From NCBI GenBank assembly GCA_003697105.1, contig RFFQ01000118.1:1-17571 (forward strand): a stretch of DNA of 17,571 bases, in the 5' to 3' direction. Positions 2,589 through 15,960 of this stretch are shown here, one piece after another. How positions within the stretch are numbered: the first letter of the stretch is position 1; every line of letters starts with the position of its first letter. Made by a program: the position numbers and the translations under genes. Under the pieces are notes generated by a model. The model did not search any database, had not been told where the DNA came from, and saw only the letters and a list, made by a program, of their open reading frames with translations. Source of the DNA: Gemmatimonadota bacterium. GTDB lineage: Bacteria; 4572-55; J002.

Positions 2589-5500
2589 TTACCCGTATTT
2601 CACTTCATGGGGCAACCAAATGATGAATGTCGTTCCCTGCCCGATTTCACTTTCCACCTGAATCGTGCCCTGATGCTCCTTCACAATCCGCAAGATGATC
2701 GACATACCCAAACCGCGTCCTTTTTCGCCTTTGGTGGTAAAAAACGGCTCAAACATTTTCTTCCGCACATCTTCAGGAATCCCATATCCATTATCACGGA
2801 ATCGGATTTCCACACCATTAATCCCATCTGCTCCGCTAGTTTCGCTAGTTTGGGGTTGGATCGAAATCTCAATGGTGGGTTGTTCCGCACCTTCCACGGC
2901 ATGAACCGCATTATTGAGCAGATTCGTAAAAATTTGCCCCAACTGCCCGCTGGTCGAAATAATATTCAGGTTTTCGCCGTACTGTTCGCGTAAGGTGATG
3001 TGCTCCAACTGTTGTTGATGAATTCGGATGGTTTCGCGGCAAACTTCGCCAACATCCACGGAACCCCGCTTCAGGCTACGTTTACCGACCAAGCCTTGTA
3101 AATCTTGCACGACCGTGCGAGTGCGCACGCCAGCAAGCTGAATCAGTTGGGCGGCGGACTGTACTTTTTCCAGTTCTTTCAAACGTTGTTCCAAGTAGGC
3201 GCTGAGTTCGTTTCCCTCCTGATCATGTTCCCAGCACTCCCAAATTTTGTCGGTATCCAAAGGGGACAATTTGAGGATGTGCTCCACAGGTCCATTGATT
3301 CCGCTGAGAGCATTGTTAATTTCGTGGGCGATCATCCCTGCCATACCGGCGAGTGTTGCCAGCCGCTCACTCTCCAACAATTGTTGGGTGCGGTCATTGA
3401 CTTTTGCTTCCAACTCCTGACTAAAACTGATGTTTTCCAAAGAGACCGCTAAGGAATGGGCAATCGTTTCGATAAAATCCAGTTCTGCATCGGTAAACTG
3501 GTCACCATCCACCCCGTTTATCTGAATTTGTGCCAAGAACTGTTGGTTGGCATAAATCACCACAACTAACTGATTCTCCGGGTGGAGGTAGCACTCTGTT
3601 TTCGTGGTGGGAGGGGGTGGCTCCAGCCGGTTTAGGGGGGTGTAGCGGGACGGGATTTCGTTCGGGAGATGGGGCAACCCCTCCGCATCTACCGTCACCG
3701 GCAATGAGTAGCGGAGATACGGTTCCGCCAGGCGGTCTCCCGTGGCGGCTACGGTGACCTCTACAGCCACCTGTTCCGGTTGGATGGGAATCTCGTGCAG
3801 CATGGCGTTCACCGCCTTGATGATAGCTTCGATGGGTTGGCGAGCTTCTGCCATCTGCCGGGTGCTATTCAACAGAATTTCCAAGCGGATATTGGCACGC
3901 CGTAGAATTTCGTTTGCTTCTGTTTTTAAGCGGTCTGCTTCCTGAAGCTGTTTATTGGCTTCGGCTAGCCGCTCTGCCACTAATTGTTTATGTTGCAATT
4001 CACGTCGCTGGCGTTCCAGTTCACGGGTTTGGGCGATGGTTTTCCACCGAACATAGCCGCCAATCAATGCCAGCACGGTCAGCACATATACCGTATATGC
4101 CCACCAGGTTTTCCACGGCGGCGGGGTCACCCGAATCTGAATAGAGGCGCCGGTCTCATTCCACACGCCATCATTATTGGAGCCGATTACTCGGAACGTA
4201 TAATTTCCCCCGTGAACATTGGTGTAACTGGCAAAGCGCATCTTTCCAGCGTTGATCCAATCCTTATCGAACCCTTCCAGCTTATACCGGTACTGATTTT
4301 TAGCCGGATTGGTATAGTCGAGCGCCGCAAATTCAAAGGAGAAAAAATTCTCTTTATACGACAGTTGGATGTGATCGATCTGGTGAATCGCCCGGTCAAA
4401 TTGGACATCCTGATCGAATTTGCGGAATCCGGTGATCACCACTGGCGGAATATGTGGATTATCCTTGACCTGCGCCGGTTTGAACCGGTTAAACCCATTG
4501 ATACCCCCTAAATAGAAAAACCCGGCGTGATCGACAAAGGATGCTCCCGCCGTAAATTCATTGCTTTGCAAGCCATCCGCCGTATCATAATTCCGAAATG
4601 TTTCCGTAAGCGGGTTAAATTTGCAAACGCCATTGCTGGTACTTAACCAGAGATTCCCACGGGAATCTTCCAAAATGCTGAGAATTTCGTTGCTGGGCAA
4701 ACCGTCTTTTTTCAGATAGCGGCGAAATGAGACCGTTTGTGGCTCCGTTTTTTGCCGGTCTGATGCCGCCAGCCGGTTCAGCCCTCCCCGGGTGCCTACC
4801 CATAAATTTCCGGCGCGATCCTGATGAATGGCGAAAACATCATCATTGCTCAAACTCTGGTCATTGCTGGCATCATGGCGATAGTGGAGGAAGGTCAGGT
4901 GTCCCGTACCGGTTCGAGTCACCCGATTCAATCCACCGCCCCACGTACCCAGCCACATCTGCTGATCGCTATCGATATAAATCGACAAAATACTCGTGTG
5001 GCTTGGGCTATTGGGGTTGTTGGGGTCATGCTGGTAAGGGGTAAATACCGGTTTTTCATGAATCCAATCCAACCGGGTTAATCCTTCATCTGTCCCCAGC
5101 CATAACTCATCTTCCCAGCCATCCACAATGGTATAAATTTGGTTATTATTCAGACTTTGATCATCGGTGGGGTCGTGCATATACCGGGTAAATGTTTGCG
5201 ATGTGGGGTCATACCGGTGTAAACCTTGCCGGTATGCCGATGCCCACAGGATACCGCGTTGGTCCACATGTAATGCCGCGATGCGGTTACTGCTCAAGGT
5301 TGTGACGTTCGCCGCGTCATGCTGAAAATGCTGAAATGTCGTGCGCTGGGCATCCAACCGGCTCAAACCGCCGCCATCCGTACCAACCCAGAGATTCCCG
5401 GCGGCATCTTCAGCAAAGGCGGTCACCGAAGCATGACGCAAGGTATTGGCATCATTGGGGTTATAGGTGTATGTTTGGAATTTTTTTGGTTTGAGATCGA

Positions 5501-6545
5501 CTTTATTAATTCCCCCACCCCGTGTGCCAATCCAGAGCACATTCGCGTTATCACTGGTGATACTCCGTATGTCATTGTGGCTAATGCTATGAGGGTTGTT
5601 GGGATCATGTTGGTAGGCGGTAAACGTTCCGGTTTCACGGTTGAACAGGCACAAACCGCCCCCATTCGTGGCAACCCACAACCGTCCGTACCGGTCTTCG
5701 TGAATTTTATACGTGGAGTTGTGGCTGAGGCTTTGAGGATTTTCGGGGTCATGCAGATAGCGGGTAAAGGTACCCGTTTGGGGGTCAAAGCGATTGAAGC
5801 CCCCTCGAGTAGAGACCCAGAAATTCTCTTGTGAATCAATAAATAACCACTGTACCCGGTTATGACTCACGCTCGTGGGGTCGTTCGGGTCGTGGTGATA
5901 ATGGGTAAAGATTTCTGTTTGTGGGTCAAACCGGTTCAGCCCATTATCTGTACCGATCCAAAGGATACCGGCTTTATCTTCAATAACACACCAAACCCGG
6001 TTATGGCTAAGCGATGTTGGGTCTTCTGGATTGTGCTGGTAACGGGTAAACACGCCGGTTTTCGGGTTCAAACGGTTCAAGCCGCCTCGATAGGTGCCGA
6101 GCCAGATAGTTCCATCTCGGGATTGAAAAACATATTGTACCCGGTTGTCACTTAAACTCGCCTCATTTTGTGGATCGGTTTTCAGCGCAGTAAAGGTATT
6201 TGTGCGTGGGTCAAATCGATTGATACCACCCCCCCATGTGGTCACCCACAGATACCCGTTCTCATCCTGAATGATGTGTCCGGTATCATTATTGGAGAGG
6301 GAGTTCTCGTCGAGGGGGTCATTTTGGTAGGTGATAAAATGGTAGCCATCATACCGGTTCAAGCCGCCTTCTCCGGCAAACCAGATAAAACCGGTTTGAT
6401 CCTGAAACACGTGGTACACCACCCCATGCGACAAGCCTTCTTCATGCCCGATGTGTTCAAATGTTAGCGCCACATCTTGAGCTGAGGCTTCAAAGGGCAT
6501 CAGTGCTATCAGGCAAGCTAAAATATATATCCAAAGAGGTGGCAT
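2589..6545 (-). CDS. Two-propeller (14-blade) sensor histidine kinase with Y_Y_Y and GAF-like domains
   Basis: A 1318-residue membrane sensor kinase. Seen, in order: a signal peptide (cut after A22, ASA-QD); fourteen Reg_prop/propeller blades (about 51-690), enough for two seven-bladed propellers; a Y_Y_Y-type beta-sandwich (about 730-806); one membrane helix (about 814-834); a charged coiled coil (about 838-885); a GAF-like region (about 885-1040); a dimerisation helix with H-box MIAHEINNAL (phospho-acceptor H1074); and an ATPase domain with N-box around N1208/N1211/N1212, DNGYGIP (D1251) and GRGLGMS (1276-1282). Known: the periplasmic part matches glycan-sensing hybrid kinases of Bacteroidetes. 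Unlike those, the protein stops after the ATPase domain, with no receiver and no AraC-type HTH. No response regulator is nearby. The ATG follows an AAGGAAGGG. The gene starts 22 nt after the HAS-barrel gene and precedes glgB by 52 nt. A carbohydrate ligand is inference. Confidence 0.93.
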   Translation of the reverse strand: MPPLWIYILACLIALMPFEASAQDVALTFEHIGHEEGLSHGVVYHVFQDQTGFIWFAGEGGLNRYDGYHFITYQNDPLDENSLSNNDTGHIIQDENGYLWVTTWGGGINRFDPRTNTFTALKTDPQNEASLSDNRVQYVFQSRDGTIWLGTYRGGLNRLNPKTGVFTRYQHNPEDPTSLSHNRVWCVIEDKAGILWIGTDNGLNRFDPQTEIFTHYHHDPNDPTSVSHNRVQWLFIDSQENFWVSTRGGFNRFDPQTGTFTRYLHDPENPQSLSHNSTYKIHEDRYGRLWVATNGGGLCLFNRETGTFTAYQHDPNNPHSISHNDIRSITSDNANVLWIGTRGGGINKVDLKPKKFQTYTYNPNDANTLRHASVTAFAEDAAGNLWVGTDGGGLSRLDAQRTTFQHFQHDAANVTTLSSNRIAALHVDQRGILWASAYRQGLHRYDPTSQTFTRYMHDPTDDQSLNNNQIYTIVDGWEDELWLGTDEGLTRLDWIHEKPVFTPYQHDPNNPNSPSHTSILSIYIDSDQQMWLGTWGGGLNRVTRTGTGHLTFLHYRHDASNDQSLSNDDVFAIHQDRAGNLWVGTRGGLNRLAASDRQKTEPQTVSFRRYLKKDGLPSNEILSILEDSRGNLWLSTSNGVCKFNPLTETFRNYDTADGLQSNEFTAGASFVDHAGFFYLGGINGFNRFKPAQVKDNPHIPPVVITGFRKFDQDVQFDRAIHQIDHIQLSYKENFFSFEFAALDYTNPAKNQYRYKLEGFDKDWINAGKMRFASYTNVHGGNYTFRVIGSNNDGVWNETGASIQIRVTPPPWKTWWAYTVYVLTVLALIGGYVRWKTIAQTRELERQRRELQHKQLVAERLAEANKQLQEADRLKTEANEILRRANIRLEILLNSTRQMAEARQPIEAIIKAVNAMLHEIPIQPEQVAVEVTVAATGDRLAEPYLRYSLPVTVDAEGLPHLPNEIPSRYTPLNRLEPPPPTTKTECYLHPENQLVVVIYANQQFLAQIQINGVDGDQFTDAELDFIETIAHSLAVSLENISFSQELEAKVNDRTQQLLESERLATLAGMAGMIAHEINNALSGINGPVEHILKLSPLDTDKIWECWEHDQEGNELSAYLEQRLKELEKVQSAAQLIQLAGVRTRTVVQDLQGLVGKRSLKRGSVDVGEVCRETIRIHQQQLEHITLREQYGENLNIISTSGQLGQIFTNLLNNAVHAVEGAEQPTIEISIQPQTSETSGADGINGVEIRFRDNGYGIPEDVRKKMFEPFFTTKGEKGRGLGMSIILRIVKEHQGTIQVESEIGQGTTFIIWLPHEVKYG
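4476..6395 (-). repeat. Coding repeat: fourteen propeller blades of about 40-49 codons
   Basis: Within the kinase gene, fourteen consecutive units begin with a motif like LW-hydrophobic-GT-x-GGGLNRFDP, pass through TFTxYxHDPNDP and end in SLSHNxV. Blades start near residues 54, 98, 146, 194, 241, 288, 336, 384, 432, 480, 529, 580, 631 and 676. The first six are the most alike, especially in the HDPNDPxSLSHN loop, which suggests internal duplication or homogenisation. This is protein-level repetition, not an array of non-coding repeats. Confidence 0.88.
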
Positions 6546-6567: not shown

Positions 6568-7146
6568 TCAGACGAGTCGTTGCAAAACTGACTTTAATCG
6601 CGGATAATCATCGGAGAGTAGTTGGCTGAGTTCTTTTCCGACCTGAACGCGGTACTGTGGATTCGGATGTAACGGTGCGGTTTGACGAATGACGGCGGCA
6701 ATGAGTTCGTCTGTGGGGACATTCGGGTTGGCTAAAATCATCCGTAAAAAGGCTAGATTTTCGCTGATTTTCTGGATTTCCCCGGTGGATAGCAGGTAAA
6801 CACGGGCGTGTAAGCGTGGGGGCAGTGGCGGCGTATGGTAATAGACCTGACCTCCCTGCTGGTATCCAATGATGGAAATCTCAAAATTAGTGCGTTGGAG
6901 TTCAAACAGATGGGGCATTTTTGCATCGAGTTCATCCAAAGGGATACCATACGCCACTGGTTGGCGGTTCGCGTCAACCCCCGTGGTCATCACGTTATAA
7001 ACGATGCCCAACACCTGACGGTCTGGGTCCATGCGCACCCAACAGCCAAAGGCGGGTGGTTGGATATCCCGCCGGTGGGGAAGTTGGGCGACCACCCGGT
7101 TACTACTACTTTCAATGATTTCGCCGACATAATCCGCGGGTGTCAT
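6568..7146 (-). CDS. HAS-barrel (HerA N-terminal-like) protein without ATPase domain
   Basis: 192 residues, predicted cytoplasmic. Seen: the N-terminal part (about 5-118) runs GEIIESSSNRVVAQLP, then a beta-rich stretch VLGIVYNVMTTG, and reaches PPLPPRLHARVYLLS. This layout matches the HAS barrel that precedes the ATPase in HerA. The remaining ~75 residues look helical. There is no Walker A or Walker B motif, and the protein ends where HerA would enter its ATPase. Its ATG overlaps the nurA stop codon (ATGA), so translation is probably coupled. Known: HerA and NurA form a DNA end-resection complex and bind through the HAS barrel. Inference: this protein is a NurA partner, either as an adaptor or as a mate for a HerA encoded elsewhere. 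The HAS assignment rests on motif likeness and the neighbour, not on a search. Confidence 0.7.
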   Translation of the reverse strand: MTPADYVGEIIESSSNRVVAQLPHRRDIQPPAFGCWVRMDPDRQVLGIVYNVMTTGVDANRQPVAYGIPLDELDAKMPHLFELQRTNFEISIIGYQQGGQVYYHTPPLPPRLHARVYLLSTGEIQKISENLAFLRMILANPNVPTDELIAAVIRQTAPLHPNPQYRVQVGKELSQLLSDDYPRLKSVLQRLV

Positions 7147-8336
7147 CGTGTGGGCCTTTGCTTAGATAGTGCTTTACGGGTTGGTGATTTGTGGATTTGT
7201 TTCTGAAGTAGCGTATTCTCAATAAGTTGGTAAAAGAGTTCGCGGTCGGGTCCCCGTACAACCGCCTGTTCGTGGGCTTCTATGAGTGCTAAAGGATACC
7301 CGAACCCTTTCTCTACTTGATCCAACGTGACCGCATGAATCAAATCAATCAAATGCGGTTGGTGGCTCATCCAATGGGGGAATTCGAGCCGCGCGATCTC
7401 GGTCATCCCACCAAATTGCCCCACATTCAGATAAAAAAAATCAATTTGGGGATGCCAGGAGTCTGAATTCATCGGCTTAAATGCGTTACTAAAAATAGCA
7501 GACCGTTCTCCCGGTCGTAAAATCTCGGCGAAGAGGCGGGCATCCCGGACGGCTTCCAGTTGGGCACACTCCCGCTCCGGCGGTAAATCCGGTTTTTGGC
7601 AGTTTTGACAATTCTCATGTGGTACCGGACAGGCATACACACGTAAACTTTTGATGAATTCACTGTGACGCGGGTCACTTTTGTAAGCAAAAATGGGGGT
7701 CTGATGGGTTTCAAACTGGTCAAACACTCGTCGCAACTGATCGACTAATTGAAGGCGGAGGGTCTCCCGTTTTTCTTCCAGATACCACATGATCAAGGTG
7801 CCATCCGCTATTGCCAGACGCGGTGAGGTTGTCGGGTATTCAGCCGCCAGTTGCCACAGGGCTTCTAGCTCCATGACACCCCGCCGGGCACTTACTTCAT
7901 CGGAGCTGATAGTCCGGCTACCTGTCTCTGTAGGAATCTGTAAATCTTCTTGTCGATAATACATGTGCGGCGCGCTCCACAACCGGGCAGACGCGGAAGC
8001 GCCGTATTGCAAAACCACATTGCCGATATTGATCAAGAAATAAGGTACAATCTCATGATGGCTGGGGAAAATTTGCGATCCATCCGTGGCGAATAGGGTA
8101 TAGTCAGAGGTCACAGACTTTGGCAGGCGGTGTGTGTCCAACGATGAATCGATTTGGGCAATTAGCCACGTTGTCTTGCTCTGATTCACCCGTTGCTGGA
8201 AGGCTTCAAAATTTTGGCGAGCCGCCTCATATAATTGGAGTGCCAAATCCAGTTGAAGGCGACTTTCGTTACCGTCAATTGCCTTCTGCGGGTCCATTTC
8301 TTGGATTTGGCGTTGCAACTCCACCAGATCAAGCAT
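7143..8336 (-). CDS. nurA: NurA-domain nuclease
   Basis: 397 residues. NurA enzymes are RNase H-fold, metal-dependent nucleases that resect DNA ends together with the HerA translocase. Seen: a helical N-terminus (1-75); the first active-site motif LFATDGSQIFPSHHE (D85, followed by GS); a second acidic motif LAIADGTLIMWYLEE (D178); and the C-terminal FGYPLALIEAHEQAV with H355. These three blocks and their order are the NurA family signature. Between them lies a cysteine cluster at C236, C243, C246 and C257 that could hold a metal ion. The C-terminus is basic (SPTRKALSKQRPTR). A purine-rich AAGGAAGG precedes the ATG. The gene sits 20 nt after the unknown 134-residue gene and overlaps the HAS-barrel gene by 4 nt. 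A repair or defence role is inferred from the family. Confidence 0.87.
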   Translation of the reverse strand: MLDLVELQRQIQEMDPQKAIDGNESRLQLDLALQLYEAARQNFEAFQQRVNQSKTTWLIAQIDSSLDTHRLPKSVTSDYTLFATDGSQIFPSHHEIVPYFLINIGNVVLQYGASASARLWSAPHMYYRQEDLQIPTETGSRTISSDEVSARRGVMELEALWQLAAEYPTTSPRLAIADGTLIMWYLEEKRETLRLQLVDQLRRVFDQFETHQTPIFAYKSDPRHSEFIKSLRVYACPVPHENCQNCQKPDLPPERECAQLEAVRDARLFAEILRPGERSAIFSNAFKPMNSDSWHPQIDFFYLNVGQFGGMTEIARLEFPHWMSHQPHLIDLIHAVTLDQVEKGFGYPLALIEAHEQAVVRGPDRELFYQLIENTLLQKQIHKSPTRKALSKQRPTR

Positions 8337-8356: not shown

Positions 8357-8761
8357 TTACTTTTTCTTACCAAACAAACCGCCCAATACTTTTCCGAAGA
8401 AGCCAGAATCTTCCTTTTTGACATCTTCTTCAACTTCGGCAACCGTCTCTTCAATTGGGGTTTCGGGCGCATCTTTGGCATTTTCGGCATCGACCCGTTT
8501 TTTGATGGACATGTAGATCTTCTGATGCTGTTGCCAAATCCACTGGTTCACGGTTTTTTGTTGGGCTTTATCCTTCAGCATTTCGGCAATCGGAACGCCA
8601 TTGATCTCTTCGGTTCGTTTATCAATTTTGACCTGCCCTTTAATAATCACTTCCGTCCGAACAACAACGGGGTCCCAATCCTCATGTAGCTGAGTTTGGA
8701 TTTGAATTTTTTCGCCATCGGCGCGTTCCACCACCGAATTGCGACCTGGAAACATTCCCAT
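8357..8761 (-). CDS. Unknown 134-residue protein with acidic linker and FGK-rich tail
   Basis: I do not recognise this family. Seen: an N-terminal start MGMFPGRNSVVERADGEK, a probably beta-rich segment to about residue 45, a helical section with several Gln and Trp residues (about 58-90), an acidic linker (about 91-117), and a tail SGFFGKVLGGLFGKKK. No signal peptide is present. The tail could form a short amphipathic, basic helix that touches membrane, DNA or a partner; this is inference. An upstream in-frame ATG at 8774-8776 would add five residues, but it lies inside the Shine-Dalgarno sequence, so I chose the ATG at 8759-8761. The gene is 43 nt downstream of the exported GATase-like gene with this start and 20 nt upstream of nurA. 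Its place before nurA makes a link to that nuclease possible but unproven. Confidence 0.75.
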   Translation of the reverse strand: MGMFPGRNSVVERADGEKIQIQTQLHEDWDPVVVRTEVIIKGQVKIDKRTEEINGVPIAEMLKDKAQQKTVNQWIWQQHQKIYMSIKKRVDAENAKDAPETPIEETVAEVEEDVKKEDSGFFGKVLGGLFGKKK

Positions 8762-8776
8762 TGAGATAACCTCCAT
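8759..8776 (-). promoter_or_regulatory. Shine-Dalgarno that decides the start of the 134-residue gene
   Basis: On the minus strand the sequence is ATGGAGGTTATCTCAATG. GGAGG (8770-8774) lies 8 nt before the second ATG, an ideal distance. The first ATG overlaps the GGAGG itself and has no ribosome site of its own upstream. Translation therefore most likely starts at 8761. Confidence 0.75.
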
Positions 8777-8804
8777 CCAATAAGTTAGATACAGAACCTG
8801 CTTA

Positions 8805-10070
8805 CTACGTTTTACGTTCTTTTTTCTTTGCCGCCGGAAATAAGATGTTATTCAAAATCAGCCGGTAGCCGGGTGAATTTTTGTGTAAAGAGAGCCGTGT
8901 TGGAGGGTCACCGACCCGGTGCCGGTAATCTTCGGGGTCGTGCCCGCCGTAATATGTAAACGTGCCTTGTCCAAATTTGCCATGCAAATATTTAACCTCA
9001 TTCGCGCCTTCTACTTCCCCCATGATTGTCACGGATTTTTTGATAAATTCCTTATGAAAACTGGTGGTTTGTCCCAAAAAGCCATTGACCACATTCACAT
9101 GGCATTGGGTCAGCATGGTGGGTACCGGGTCATACTTTGCCGAGAATTCAAATAGGGTGAAGTAGTCCGCTTCCGCGCCACGAGCTTCCGCATAATTACT
9201 CGCATCAATATCCGAAAATTCATAGACCAGTGGATTGCTTTCCAGATGGAAATTTTCAAAGGCGAAACAGCGGGTATAATCCAATTTACTCTGGAAATTC
9301 GGATCAATGGGATCGCCATCAAATTCCGGGGCACAGATGTCCACACCGTAAGCTGCCAACGCGATCTCAAAGGTATCGGTTGCGGAACACATGGCGAATA
9401 AAAACCCCCCATTTGCCACATACGCTTTAATCGTTTCGGCAACCGCACTTTTGAGCTGGGAGACTTTAGAAAATCCCAATTTATGGGCAAGTTGTTCACT
9501 CTGCAAAACTTCCAACTGGTACCATTCCGCATTGCGGAAACTGGCGTAAAATTTACCATATTGGCCGGTAAAGTCCTCATGATGCAGATGTAACCAGTCA
9601 AAATCTTCTAACTTACCTTCCAGCACCTCTTCATCGTAAACCGTTTCATACGGAATATCGGCATATGTCAAGGCGAGGGTTACCGCATCATCCCACGGTT
9701 GTTTGTTGGGGGGCGTATAAATGGCGACTTCCGGTGGTTTTTCCAGTAGAACCCGCTCCATGTTTTCGCTTTCAATTTTGCTGTAGATTTGAGCCACTTC
9801 CGAACCGGAAACCGTGCTATAGGACACGCCCATTTCGATGGCTTTTTCCCGGAAACCGGGGAATTCATCCACTAAAAATGAACCGTTCCGGTAATTGAGC
9901 AACCATTCGACATTATAGCCTTCCTGAAGACACCAATAAGCCAATCCATACGCTTTTAGATGATCGGTTTGGGCTAAATCCATATAGACTAATGCCTTTG
10001 CCGAAACCGTAGAGGAAAGGGCAAAAATCAACGAGAGGAGTAGTGCTACGGATTTCCATTCATATCTCAT
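8805..10070 (-). CDS. Exported GATase-like protein of the family often annotated 'asparagine synthetase B'
   Basis: 421 residues with a clear Sec signal peptide (hydrophobic 8-20, cut after A24, VSA-KA). It is therefore periplasmic or secreted. Seen: KALVYMDLAQTDHLKAYGLAYW near the start, a His-rich loop WLHLHHEDF (H161, H163, H164), GGFLFAMCSATDTFE with C228, and GTFTYYGGHDPEDYRHR with H377. Known: exported proteins of this type are widespread in Bacteroidetes and carry an 'asparagine synthetase B' label. Neither the N-terminal Cys-2 glutaminase nor the ATP-pyrophosphatase domain of AsnB is present. The glycine-rich turn around C228 resembles the nucleophile elbow of class I glutamine amidotransferase-like folds, so an amidase or hydrolase is possible; this is inference. 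The ATG is 6 nt past the stop of the lipoprotein gene, whose last codons supply GGAGAG as ribosome site, so the two are likely coupled. Confidence 0.8.
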   Translation of the reverse strand: MRYEWKSVALLLSLIFALSSTVSAKALVYMDLAQTDHLKAYGLAYWCLQEGYNVEWLLNYRNGSFLVDEFPGFREKAIEMGVSYSTVSGSEVAQIYSKIESENMERVLLEKPPEVAIYTPPNKQPWDDAVTLALTYADIPYETVYDEEVLEGKLEDFDWLHLHHEDFTGQYGKFYASFRNAEWYQLEVLQSEQLAHKLGFSKVSQLKSAVAETIKAYVANGGFLFAMCSATDTFEIALAAYGVDICAPEFDGDPIDPNFQSKLDYTRCFAFENFHLESNPLVYEFSDIDASNYAEARGAEADYFTLFEFSAKYDPVPTMLTQCHVNVVNGFLGQTTSFHKEFIKKSVTIMGEVEGANEVKYLHGKFGQGTFTYYGGHDPEDYRHRVGDPPTRLSLHKNSPGYRLILNNILFPAAKKKERKT

Positions 10071-10076
10071 GTGGGG

Positions 10077-10424
10077 TTACTCTCCTTTGTTGTGTTCCAC
10101 TAAAATGATACCAAAACTTTTATCTAAAACCGTAAATCCAATCTTAATCTCACCGGTAACCGTGGCATGTTCACCCCGTTCTAACACCCGTCCTTGCGGG
10201 TTGACCCACAATTCTCCACCGGAATCATCACTAATTTTGTACAATCCCTTGCCGGTGAGTGGGATTGAGAATGTCTCCACCACAGTGCCGGAAATGGTCA
10301 CGGGTCGGCCGGTGTACGCTTGCGGGTCTTTTTCAATATCCCGTAATCGCACCTGACTATTTCCGCAACTCATCAACAGCATGGCAATTAAAATTCCGCT
10401 ACAAATGTTATTCATCATCGCCAT
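10077..10424 (-). CDS. Small OB-fold-like lipoprotein
   Basis: 115 residues. Seen: a short hydrophobic leader (ICSGILIAMLLMSC) ending in a lipobox LMSC with C20 as the lipidated residue, then one compact beta-rich domain: VRLRDIEKDPQAYTGRPVTI, ISGTVVET, GLYKISDDSGGELWV, GEHATVTGEIKIG, FGIILVEHN. This strand pattern (YxGRPVTISGTV then YxISDDSGxLWV) is typical of bacterial OB-fold domains that bind small ligands or peptides. Serine at +2 (N-terminal CSN...) fits outer-membrane sorting in many Gram-negatives. The ATG follows GGAGGG by 5 nt and overlaps the end of the RHH gene by 17 nt, so translation is probably coupled. The next gene is an exported protein, so both likely act in the envelope. 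The ligand is unknown. Confidence 0.8.
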   Translation of the reverse strand: MAMMNNICSGILIAMLLMSCGNSQVRLRDIEKDPQAYTGRPVTISGTVVETFSIPLTGKGLYKISDDSGGELWVNPQGRVLERGEHATVTGEIKIGFTVLDKSFGIILVEHNKGE

Positions 10425-12538: not shown

Positions 12539-14630
12539 AAACATTATGCCTTTGACCCGTCGGAAAGTGTGGAGGCGCGGGTCAACGGGTTTTTGTCCAA
12601 TTTAGGGCAAGGTGTGCTATTGGTCGGAATTGTTGTCTTGCTCTCGGTAGGGTTGCGGGCATCCATAATCGTGATGCTGGCAATTCCGCTTCCACTCATC
12701 ATCGGAATCGGCTTTGTGGATAAAGCCGGGTTTGGCTTACAGCAAATGTCGATTGTGGGGCTGGTGATCGCGCTCGGTTTATTGGTTGATAACGCGATTG
12801 TGGTAACCGAAAACGTGAGCCGTTTCCTGAAAAAGGGGCGCTCTCAAGTGGACACGGCAATGGAGGGCACCTCACAGATTGGCTGGGCGATTGTCAGTTC
12901 CACCGTGACGACTGTGCTGGCGTTCATCCCCATTATTTTCATGCCGGATGAAACCGGAGATTTCATTCGCGGTATGCCGGTGACGGTCGTCTTCACGTTG
13001 AGCGCGTCATTGTTGCTTGCCCTTACCCTGACGCCCTATTTGTCCAGCCGGATCCTAAAATATAAGGAAGGGCAACGGATAAGTCCGGTTCAACACCTGC
13101 TTAATTGGGTCATTGAAAAGCCTTACCGGGCAACGCTCCGGATCGCTTTGCGGCTCCCGTGGATGATTGTGGTATTCGCACTGATTACCTTTGCCGGCAG
13201 TTTGGCATTGTTCCCGCTGGTTGGCATTTCCTTTTTCCCGAAGGCGGAAAAACCCCAGTTCTACATCAACATTACCACCCCCAACGGATCGAGTTTAGAT
13301 AAAACGGATCACGTTGTGCAAGTGGTGGAGGCCGAACTGGCAAAAATGGATGAAATCAAGCACTGGTCGGCAAACATTGGGCGTAGTAACCCGCGAATTT
13401 ACTACGGACTCATCCCCAAACACAAAACCCCCACCCATGCCCAAATTTTTGTCGAATTGAAAAACCGGAAATTGGAACAATGGCACAGGCGGTAAACCAT
13501 TTACGCCAAAAATTCCAGGAGTACCCCGGCGCACAAATCGCCATCAAAGAGTTTGAACAAGGTCCGCCCGTGGAAGCACCCATTGAAATCCGTTTGATGG
13601 GTGACAACCTCCCCGAATTGACCCGCATCGCGAAAGATACGGAACGCATCTTCCGCAAAACGGCGGGAACGATCAATATCGATAACCCGTTGCGCACCTC
13701 CAAAACCGATTTACGGGTGAATATCAACCGGGAGAAAGCAGGACTATTGGGTGTCCCCCTGATTGACATTGATCGCACTGTCCGCATGGCGATTGCCGGT
13801 CTGCCAGTCGCCACCTACCGCGAACCAAAGGTGATGAACATCCGATTGTGATGCGCCTGCCATTTGTTGAAGGCGAACCGAAAATCGAAGATTTTAACCG
13901 TATTTATGTGCGTTCCATGACAGGAGCACAAATTCCGCTGAACCAACTGGCGAGCATTGAATTTAAAGCCAGCCCTAGCAAAATCGATCACCGAAATTTG
14001 GATCGGACAGTGTCCATCACCGCCGATGTGCAGGCGGGCTATTTGGTCGATGATGTCACCCGCGAGATTGTTACCCAATTGGAGGCGTACGAGTTTCCGC
14101 CGGGCACCCGATTTTCGGTCGGGGGGGTGGTGGAAACCCGCGAGGAATCTTTTGGCGGGATGGGGCAAGCCTCAATCATTGCCCTGATTGCTATTTTCGG
14201 CGTGTTGGTGCTTCAATTCCGGTCATTTCTTCAACCCCTGATCGTCTTTGCCGCGATTCCGTTGGCTGTTATTGGGTCGATCTTGGCGCTCTTCTTGACC
14301 GGTAACCAATTTTCGTTTATGGCGTTTGTCGGGTTGACCAGCTTAATTGGTATTGTGATCAATAACTCCATCATCCTGGTCGATTATACCAACCAATTAC
14401 GGGCGGAAGGTAAATCAATTCAAACGGTATTGAAAGAAGCCGGTGAGACCCGTTTCACACCGATCATCTTGACCACGGCGACCACCATTGGCGGCTTGCT
14501 ACCCTTGACCCTTAGCGGCGGGACTCTTTGGGCACCTCTCGGTTGGACTATCATCGGCGGTTTGATGATGTCCACATTTTTGACATTGATTGTCGTCCCT
14601 GTTTTGTATATTTTGATGACCCGTGAATGA
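12539..14630 (+). pseudogene. RND efflux pump permease (AcrB/HAE type), 5'-truncated and frameshifted
   Basis: Three overlapping frames together encode the last two thirds of an inner-membrane RND transporter. Part 1 (to about 13478) starts inside the protein at about the position of AcrB residue 310-315 (FDPSESVEARVNGF) and includes GLVIALGLLVDNAIVVTENV, where the AcrB Asp pair is Asp-Asn. Part 2 (about 13480-13830) includes KEFEQGPPVEAPIEIRL. Part 3 (about 13833-14630) includes DEHPIVMRLPFVEGE, the last membrane helices and a normal end (VVPVLYILMTRE). Each junction is repaired by adding one base: near 13476-13480 (restoring EQMAQAV) and in the AAAGG near 13828-13832 (restoring REPKGDEHP). 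No start codon or ribosome site fits, since homology begins right after an in-frame stop at 12536-12538. Two indels could be sequencing errors; the missing 5' third could not. Nonfunctional as it stands. Confidence 0.88.
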
Positions 14631-14673: not shown

Positions 14674-15960
14674 ATGTCCCGAGCGATTGATTATACTGCC
14701 AAATTTGAGCACTTGCGACAGCAACCGCTTTTTCAAAAACTGGATACCGATCAGCAACAGGCATTGAAACGGATTGCTTTTGAATATCGATTGACTTTTC
14801 AGGAATTTCGGACATTGGTAGAAGCCAGCCGCGATTTGCGTATGTGGGGCGAACCTGACCTTGACCAGTGGTGGCGGGAGCAAGAGGCACAATCCTCCCT
14901 AAAAAAAGCGCAACTCAAAGTGTACCTATTCCAGCAGTTGCGGGAGTATTTGGATGCGTTAAAATCGAAACCCGCCCGTTATCCAGCCCACCCCCTCCCA
15001 CCTCCCCAACGGGAGCGCTCACGGTCGATCCGCCGGGAAGAGAGCGATAAAGCCATCATGGGTATGTGTCCGGTAGCCTCCCCGCAGACGGTCTGTTGCA
15101 ACCTGCGCACAATCGATGTTGTTGAAAATTGCCCTTTGGGTTGCAGTTATTGCATCATTCAGACGTTCTATCAGGAAAATATCCGATTTGACGCGGCGTT
15201 TGCGGAAAAATTAAAGCGGCTTGAGCTGGATCCGCACCGGTTTTACCATATCGGAACGGGACAATCTTCTGATTCGCTCCTGTGGGACAACCGGTATGGT
15301 GTTTTGGAAGCGATTTGCCAATTTGCGGCGGATCATCCCCATGTTTTGATGGAACTCAAAACCAAATCGGATCAAATCCGGTATATGCTGGAAAACGAAA
15401 TACCACCGAATGTTGTATGCAGTTGGTCGCTCAACACTCCAACGATTATCGAGAATGAAGAACACTTTACCGCCAGTTTGGAGCGCCGTCTGGCAGCCGC
15501 ACGTGCCGTAGCGGATAAGGGCATCCGGGTTGGGTTTCACTTCCACCCGATGATTCATTACGCCGGCTGGGAGGTGGAGTATCCGGCGGTTGCGCAACGA
15601 CTGATCGATCAGTTTCATCCGGCGGAGGTGGTCTTTATCTCGTTTGGGAGCTTGACCCTCATCAAGCCGGCAGTCAAGGCAATCCGGGAACAAGGAAACC
15701 CGACTAAAATCTTACAAACTCAGTTCAGCACCGACCCGCTGGGGAAACTGACCTATTCCGACGAGATAAAAATCGCGTTATTCCGTACGCTGTATCAGGC
15801 ATTTACGCCATGGCAGGAGGAGGTCTTTTTTTATCTTTGCATGGAAAAAGCATCGATTTGGAAGGCACTGTTCGGCACTGTATATGAATCCAACGAGCAG
15901 TTTGAGCAAGAATTTGGCAGACATACGTTGAAAAAAATAAAAGTATCATCTTTGATTTGA
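14674..15960 (+). CDS. SPL-family (spore photoproduct lyase-like) radical SAM protein
   Basis: 428 residues, cytoplasmic. Seen: a helical N-terminal extension (1-130, many Gln and Arg), then a radical SAM core with ENCPLGCSYCIIQTFYQ, i.e. CxxxCxxC at C153, C157 and C160 for the 4Fe-4S cluster that cleaves S-adenosylmethionine. Further on are HIGTGQSSDSLLWD (192-205), ELKTKSD (227-233), CSWSLNTPTIIENEEH (249-264), and GFHFHPMIHYAGWEVEY (287-303). These blocks match the SplB/COG1533 group that includes spore photoproduct lyase. However, no Cys sits about 44 residues after the cluster, where Bacillus SPL has its hydrogen donor (C141). Extra cysteines lie before the cluster (C132, C141, C142). 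So the substrate is open. The ATG has no clear Shine-Dalgarno. It starts 43 nt after the RND pseudogene and may once have been cotranscribed with it. Confidence 0.85.
   Translation: MSRAIDYTAKFEHLRQQPLFQKLDTDQQQALKRIAFEYRLTFQEFRTLVEASRDLRMWGEPDLDQWWREQEAQSSLKKAQLKVYLFQQLREYLDALKSKPARYPAHPLPPPQRERSRSIRREESDKAIMGMCPVASPQTVCCNLRTIDVVENCPLGCSYCIIQTFYQENIRFDAAFAEKLKRLELDPHRFYHIGTGQSSDSLLWDNRYGVLEAICQFAADHPHVLMELKTKSDQIRYMLENEIPPNVVCSWSLNTPTIIENEEHFTASLERRLAAARAVADKGIRVGFHFHPMIHYAGWEVEYPAVAQRLIDQFHPAEVVFISFGSLTLIKPAVKAIREQGNPTKILQTQFSTDPLGKLTYSDEIKIALFRTLYQAFTPWQEEVFFYLCMEKASIWKALFGTVYESNEQFEQEFGRHTLKKIKVSSLI

Follow-up and report, generated by a model that had tools for sequence, protein, structure and literature searches.

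Work on HerA-NurA in archaea and Deinococcus has treated it as a machine of two parts. The locus considered here, from a Gemmatimonadota bacterium, raises the question of what a HAS barrel does when it is encoded beside NurA as a protein of its own. In the window (the whole stretch of DNA analysed, 17,571 nucleotides, comprising contig RFFQ01000118.1 of assembly GCA_003697105.1), nurA is coupled to a gene for a 192-aa protein of this kind. With a probability of roughly 0.62, we consider this protein to be a HAS-barrel subunit, encoded by a gene of its own, of a bacterial machine in which HerA and NurA process DNA ends, and to work together with a complete HerA. The gene pair consists of the following features:

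Positions 7143..8336, minus strand: NurA nuclease, 397 aa (PF09376; the sole PF09376 match of the genome).
Positions 6568..7146, minus strand: stand-alone HAS-barrel protein, 192 aa, without an ATPase domain (ORF, PF09378, AF2 model and structure comparison).
Positions 7143..7146, minus strand: the 4-base ATGA overlap, comprising the start of the HAS gene and the stop of nurA.

The original prediction, made from the letters of the window, had described this overlap, and both ORFs and their shared bases are found exactly there. It had also named the upstream product NurA, an assignment borne out by a PF09376 score of 110.6 bits (cut-off 21; E 1.2e-31, residues 80-360), and had held that the partner lacks the HerA ATPase; the partner indeed stops at 192 aa, with PF09378 as its sole Pfam match. 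A nurA gene with an ATGA-overlapping solo barrel is thereby confirmed as a genuine arrangement. Within NurA, the DGSQ (residues 85-88) and DGTL (178-181) motifs align with those of other NurAs, and their aspartates are what we take, from knowledge of the family, to be candidate metal ligands. These residues and a four-cysteine insert recognised in the NurA comparison are located as follows:

Positions 8082..8084, minus strand: Asp85 of the DGSQ motif, candidate metal ligand.
Positions 7803..7805, minus strand: Asp178 of the DGTL motif, candidate metal ligand.
Positions 7566..7631, minus strand: Cys4 insert (C236, C243, C246 and C257; C-x6-C-x2-C-x10-C, residues 236-257).

The Cys4 insert, a possible zinc site, occurs in most NurAs that accompany a solo barrel; the seven compared NurAs without a clear one all lack it (0/7). 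Variants exist, in that one cysteine is replaced by tyrosine in the NurAs of L153 and L104, and the NurA of L111 has no insert.

Several neighbouring genes were also recorded. A 1318-aa sensor kinase of the two-component propeller type (Reg_prop repeats, Y_Y_Y, HATPase) occupies 2589-6545 on the strand of the HAS gene and starts 22 bases after it. Two genes (139 and 421 aa; 8357-10070) without a significant Pfam match directly precede nurA on its own strand, separated by short gaps, and homologues of the upstream genes (8357-8776, 8805-10070 and 10077-10424) were absent from every other locus retrieved. Farther away, an AcrB-type RND transporter lies in pieces at 12569-14630, where two stretches of the profile, 335-624 and 771-1020, are covered by ORFs lying in different frames and the start is missing, reflecting either a broken gene or sequencing frameshifts. 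A spore photoproduct lyase-like radical SAM protein (PF20903, E 1e-12) at 14674-15960 is a possible further DNA-repair gene.

The identity of the 192-aa protein was approached through its sequence family and its predicted structure. PF09378 (HAS barrel) aligns over its full domain at residues 7-97, the single sequence scoring 18.9 bits against a curated cut-off of 25.2 (E 0.0016). In a family alignment of the protein with 56 relatives from named genomes (57 members), PF09378 is matched at E<=0.01 by 54 members (best 2.9e-10), and the members of L086, L088 and L014, the last from the cyanobacterial phylum, exceed the cut-off. The AF2 model computed from this alignment (mean pLDDT 90.3, pTM 0.85) comprises a beta barrel at about residues 5-118, with strands at 6-13, 17-21, 36-39, 45-56, 84-97, 100-102 and 115-118, followed by five helices at 121-191, so that the gene can be divided into the following parts:

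Positions 6793..7134, minus strand: HAS-barrel part and following strand, residues 5-118 (AF2 strands; PF09378 at 7-97).
Positions 6898..6975, minus strand: residues 58-83, a loop and helix in which the conserved residues of the family are most densely clustered.
Positions 6574..6786, minus strand: helical tail, residues 121-191, with five helices and a terminal conserved DDYxRL motif (AF2 and family alignment).

In the loop-helix region, A65, L73, P78 and F81 are invariant, and relatives carry a QPQIF motif. When the model was compared with solved structures, HerA HAS domains ranked first in Foldseek (4d2i, E 5.5e-7, probability 1.00), and VIA-align gave Z 13.2 against residues 1-126 of Sulfolobus HerA 4d2i (rmsd 3.8 over 112), 11.3 against Thermococcus HerA and 10.9 against Deinococcus HerA; the barrels of F1-ATPase were the next structural matches, close behind. 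Since HerA HAS domains come first in both comparisons, the HAS-type beta-barrel fold of the modelled protein is confirmed, and the barrel with a helical tail that had been proposed from the sequence is reproduced by the prediction, including its five helices. What ties the protein to HerA barrels is this similarity of fold together with the weak Pfam match, given that hhalign found no significant profile similarity between the solo-barrel family and HerA N-termini. Descent of the solo barrel from its own partner HerA is for the same reason unsupported. Sequence searches of the PDB with the solo family and with NurA yielded no credible match.

The protein had been described as a barrel that accompanies NurA while lacking HerA, a description that holds for the solo protein, which has no ATPase, but not for the genome. 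A search for a HerA ATPase with a barrel of its own, suggested at the outset, found one full HerA on contig C105 of the window genome (G000, 97% complete), 543 aa from its likely start, with its own HAS barrel, a DUF87 core and a Walker A motif. Absence of HerA from the genome is therefore ruled out, and the genome encodes both HerA and NurA, the single NurA gene being that of the window. The HerA belongs to a group, here termed HerA-1, defined by scores of at least 500 bits with profile A2, every other HerA scoring below 100 bits. Across phyla, HerA-1 proteins are 58-64% identical to the HerA of the window genome, and they are remote by sequence from solved HerAs (best 90 bits in a list that did not include D. 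radiodurans HerA). All of the HerA-1 proteins examined (20/20) keep their own HAS barrel, which makes the solo barrel an addition to HerA and not a substitute for it.

Phylogenetic profiles connect the three proteins. Among 336 genomes spread over bacteria, in which the solo barrel is carried by 13 families, HAS and HerA-1 occur together in 19, HAS alone in none and HerA-1 alone in one (G311), and NurA is present in 18 of the 19 genomes with both. The same sample contains 31 NurA-positive genomes, which divide into 18 with both HAS and HerA-1 and 13 with neither. In 116 genomes of the cyanobacterial phylum, three of which are shared with the first sample, HAS and HerA-1 co-occur in 53, about half, HAS stands alone in two (G103 and G130) and HerA-1 alone in none; every HAS genome has NurA (55/55), and the three NurA genomes of this phylum without a clear HAS encode only a distant HerA. 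Fisher p-values for the co-occurrence, calculated without regard to shared ancestry, reach about 1e-30. A HAS-barrel gene and a NurA gene have also been reported together in UCYN-A1 and are both absent from UCYN-A2 (PMC12234771), and a 'putative ATPase' stands in the list in which they appear.

Gene order offers a second line of evidence. A scan of genome contigs with the single query P0002 gave no matches; a genome scan with alignment A5 recovered solo-barrel relatives in at least 565 genome stretches. The best 80 of these carry the labels Latescibacterota, Gemmatimonadota, Armatimonadota, Handelsmanbacteria, Zixiibacteriota, KSB3, Entotheonella/Tectomicrobia, Dadabacteria, Thermodesulfobacteriota, a Bacillota bin, Cyanobacteria and Sericytochromatia, a span of a dozen or so phylum-level groups. 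Among the same best 80 loci, nurA-HAS-herA is intact in 33, two genes adjoin in 11 (nurA-HAS in 6, HAS-herA in 5) and HAS has no adjacent partner in 36, mostly from cyanobacteria; wherever genes adjoin (44/80), the order nurA-HAS-herA on a single strand is invariable. Complete triads were likewise found in G341, G211 and G214, HAS-herA pairs in G344, G257, G386, G404, G274 and G014, and nurA-HAS pairs in G177, G432, G063, G077 and G091. The nurA-HAS pair of the window fits this conserved order, which, together with the number of homologous stretches, places the arrangement beyond chance. Genes resembling mre11 and rad50 directly follow herA in L153, L154, L157 and L158, lie further downstream in L119 and are absent from the window; linkage to mre11-rad50 is the context of archaeal repair operons. 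In G452-G456, divergent ORFs of 197-215 aa match the solo-family profile at 85-194 (its second half) only, and these may be remote members.

Taken together, the profiles and operons make the partnership of the solo barrel with NurA and HerA-1 well supported, and they back the earlier suggestion that the barrel complements a HerA encoded elsewhere. There are exceptions. G311, which has HerA-1 without HAS or NurA, is a draft in 480 contigs, and one assembly gap could explain its missing genes because nurA and HAS adjoin in G177, a genome of the same genus; G307, which lacks NurA, is a draft in 270 contigs, and G130, with HAS and no HerA, is a draft in 50. In one genome of other character (G080, L094:4099-7550), a single operon contains nurA, a very divergent HAS-like gene of 198 aa and a herA outside HerA-1; the middle gene goes unrecognised by Pfam and matches the solo family weakly (27 bits with A4), so we mention this operon purely as a lead. 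Other kinds of nurA-herA pair, namely the archaeal-style nurA-herA-mre11-rad50 of L214 and L228 and the pairs of G083 and G260, contained no recognisable HAS gene.

A further exception is G103 (L224; cyanobacterial phylum, single contig), where NurA and a solo barrel are present and HerA is not recognisable; its DUF87 matches are weak (best E 1.2e-4) and lie inside longer, unrelated-looking ORFs, and no HerA-1 was detected. Such a genome would be expected if the barrel were a HerA-independent adaptor or regulator of NurA, the two forming a nuclease unit that needs no HerA, and the same reading would suit the window and the five genomes in which, as in the window, nurA adjoins the barrel and herA lies elsewhere. 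We nevertheless think it improbable, as HerA-1 accompanies the barrel in 53 of 55 and 19 of 19 barrel-bearing genomes in the two samples, and other lineages place the barrel beside herA and not beside nurA. The original prediction had offered a stand-alone NurA adaptor as one option; its first half, a stand-alone barrel coupled to NurA, stands, whereas independence from HerA is backed by the one genome G103.

For a subunit that works with HerA, solved complexes indicate where it might act. In the structure from Deinococcus, the six HAS barrels of the HerA ring form a crown on which a NurA dimer rests (PMC9960219); in that from Thermococcus, NurA is contacted by the alpha1 helices of the HAS domains and by the loops preceding them (PMC12977600). 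By structural analogy, residues of about 58-83 of the solo barrel would correspond approximately to this alpha1/loop region, an equivalence of regions and not of individual residues. Members of the family tend to be mildly acidic (median pI 5.6), which favours protein contacts over DNA binding. Because HAS barrels bind NurA in solved complexes, the corresponding loop-helix is conserved, the family is acidic and HerA-1 keeps its own barrel, we infer a role in adaptation, or in assembly or coupling, and the solo barrel is probably an adaptor at the interface between NurA and the HAS crown. In the mechanism that we propose, it would dock through its conserved loop-helix region where the NurA dimer meets the six-barrel crown, its five-helix tail would add an extra element to the complex, and it would either aid the assembly of NurA onto the ring or govern the passage of DNA from the motor to the nuclease, in the setting of double-strand-break end resection. 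Resection by a machine of HerA-1, NurA and HAS is suggested by the NurA/HerA/Mre11/Rad50 context, and a role in resection has been questioned even for Thermococcus HerA-NurA (PMC12977600). A natural in-frame nurA-HAS tandem (L152, a single stop being read through) was modelled by AF2 as one chain, without a NurA dimer or HerA ring, and gave mostly confident separate domains; owing to a pTM of 0.58 and a disordered linker, the relative placement of NurA and HAS is not confident. The location of herA on a contig other than that of nurA-HAS in the window genome counts against this explanation, as does G103, with its NurA and HAS but no HerA.

Contact with NurA might also be inhibitory. The barrel could be a brake, a mimic of the HerA crown that competes for NurA and thereby limits resection, as its HerA HAS-like fold and the co-expression inferred from the operons would allow. 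The divergence of the solo barrel from the barrel of its partner HerA, to which the profile comparison found no significant similarity, speaks against such mimicry, and we hold the brake to be unlikely, slightly more so than HerA-independence.

A place in phage defence had been raised at the outset, and HerA-nuclease complexes do act in defence in known systems. The pair could accordingly be a module like HerA-SIR2, HerA-DUF4297 and other HerA-nuclease defence pairs, structures of which are among the fold matches of the solo barrel, and one triad (L123:7271-9306) precedes genes for a DNA methylase and a type II restriction enzyme. PADLOC, however, gives nothing for NurA and a single marginal match for the barrel (candidate model PDC-M18A, E 0.016), and searches of phages, plasmids and IMG/VR viral contigs turned up no relatives. 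The presence of the barrel in cyanobacteria is broad and looks vertical, following lineages, and its genes there are unlinked, unlike those of a mobile defence cassette. The defence suggestion is unsupported, and we judge it very unlikely.

Finally, a decayed HerA remnant that lost its ATPase, which a barrel without ATPase might superficially resemble, is refuted by conservation over a dozen or so phylum-level groups, a C-terminal helical domain of its own and invariant residues, as well as by the coexisting complete HerA.

The separately encoded subunit of a HerA-NurA machine resembles known components in part. It shares with the HerA HAS domain (PF09378; Sulfolobus 4D2I, Thermococcus 9X1L) the same predicted barrel fold (Z 11-13) as well as the helix and loop insert through which HerA contacts NurA, but is a separate polypeptide that, in place of a RecA-like ATPase, has a five-helix C-terminal domain. 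The end-resection complexes of archaea and Deinococcus radiodurans (7F6D/7WRW) likewise combine NurA with a HerA bearing a HAS barrel of its own, and mre11-rad50 sometimes come next in the gene order, whereas the predicted system described here adds a third, separately encoded barrel. In the HerA-SIR2, HerA-DUF4297 and TdpAB defence complexes, HerA-type HAS barrels are also joined to an effector nuclease or NADase; the barrel there lies within the HerA chain, while the solo barrel is separate and without defence context. Cyanobacterial genes already bear the HAS-barrel name: the 'HAS barrel domain protein' of UCYN-A1, likened here by its annotation, is listed in a table that gives its annotation and no function or partner (PMC12234771).

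We found no description of a third HerA-NurA component in the open-access literature, and the function of the solo barrel is apparently previously unstudied. There is about an even chance that the HerA-NurA machine of bacteria carrying HerA-1 consists of three obligate components, with a separately encoded HAS barrel and its helical domain as the third, a form that would have been overlooked so far because the solved models come from archaeal, Deinococcus or defence HerAs. If a large bacterial branch does have the separate barrel as its obligate third subunit, the way in which NurA is loaded on and coupled to the six-fold ring would need revision, and a conserved cyanobacterial gene would gain a function.
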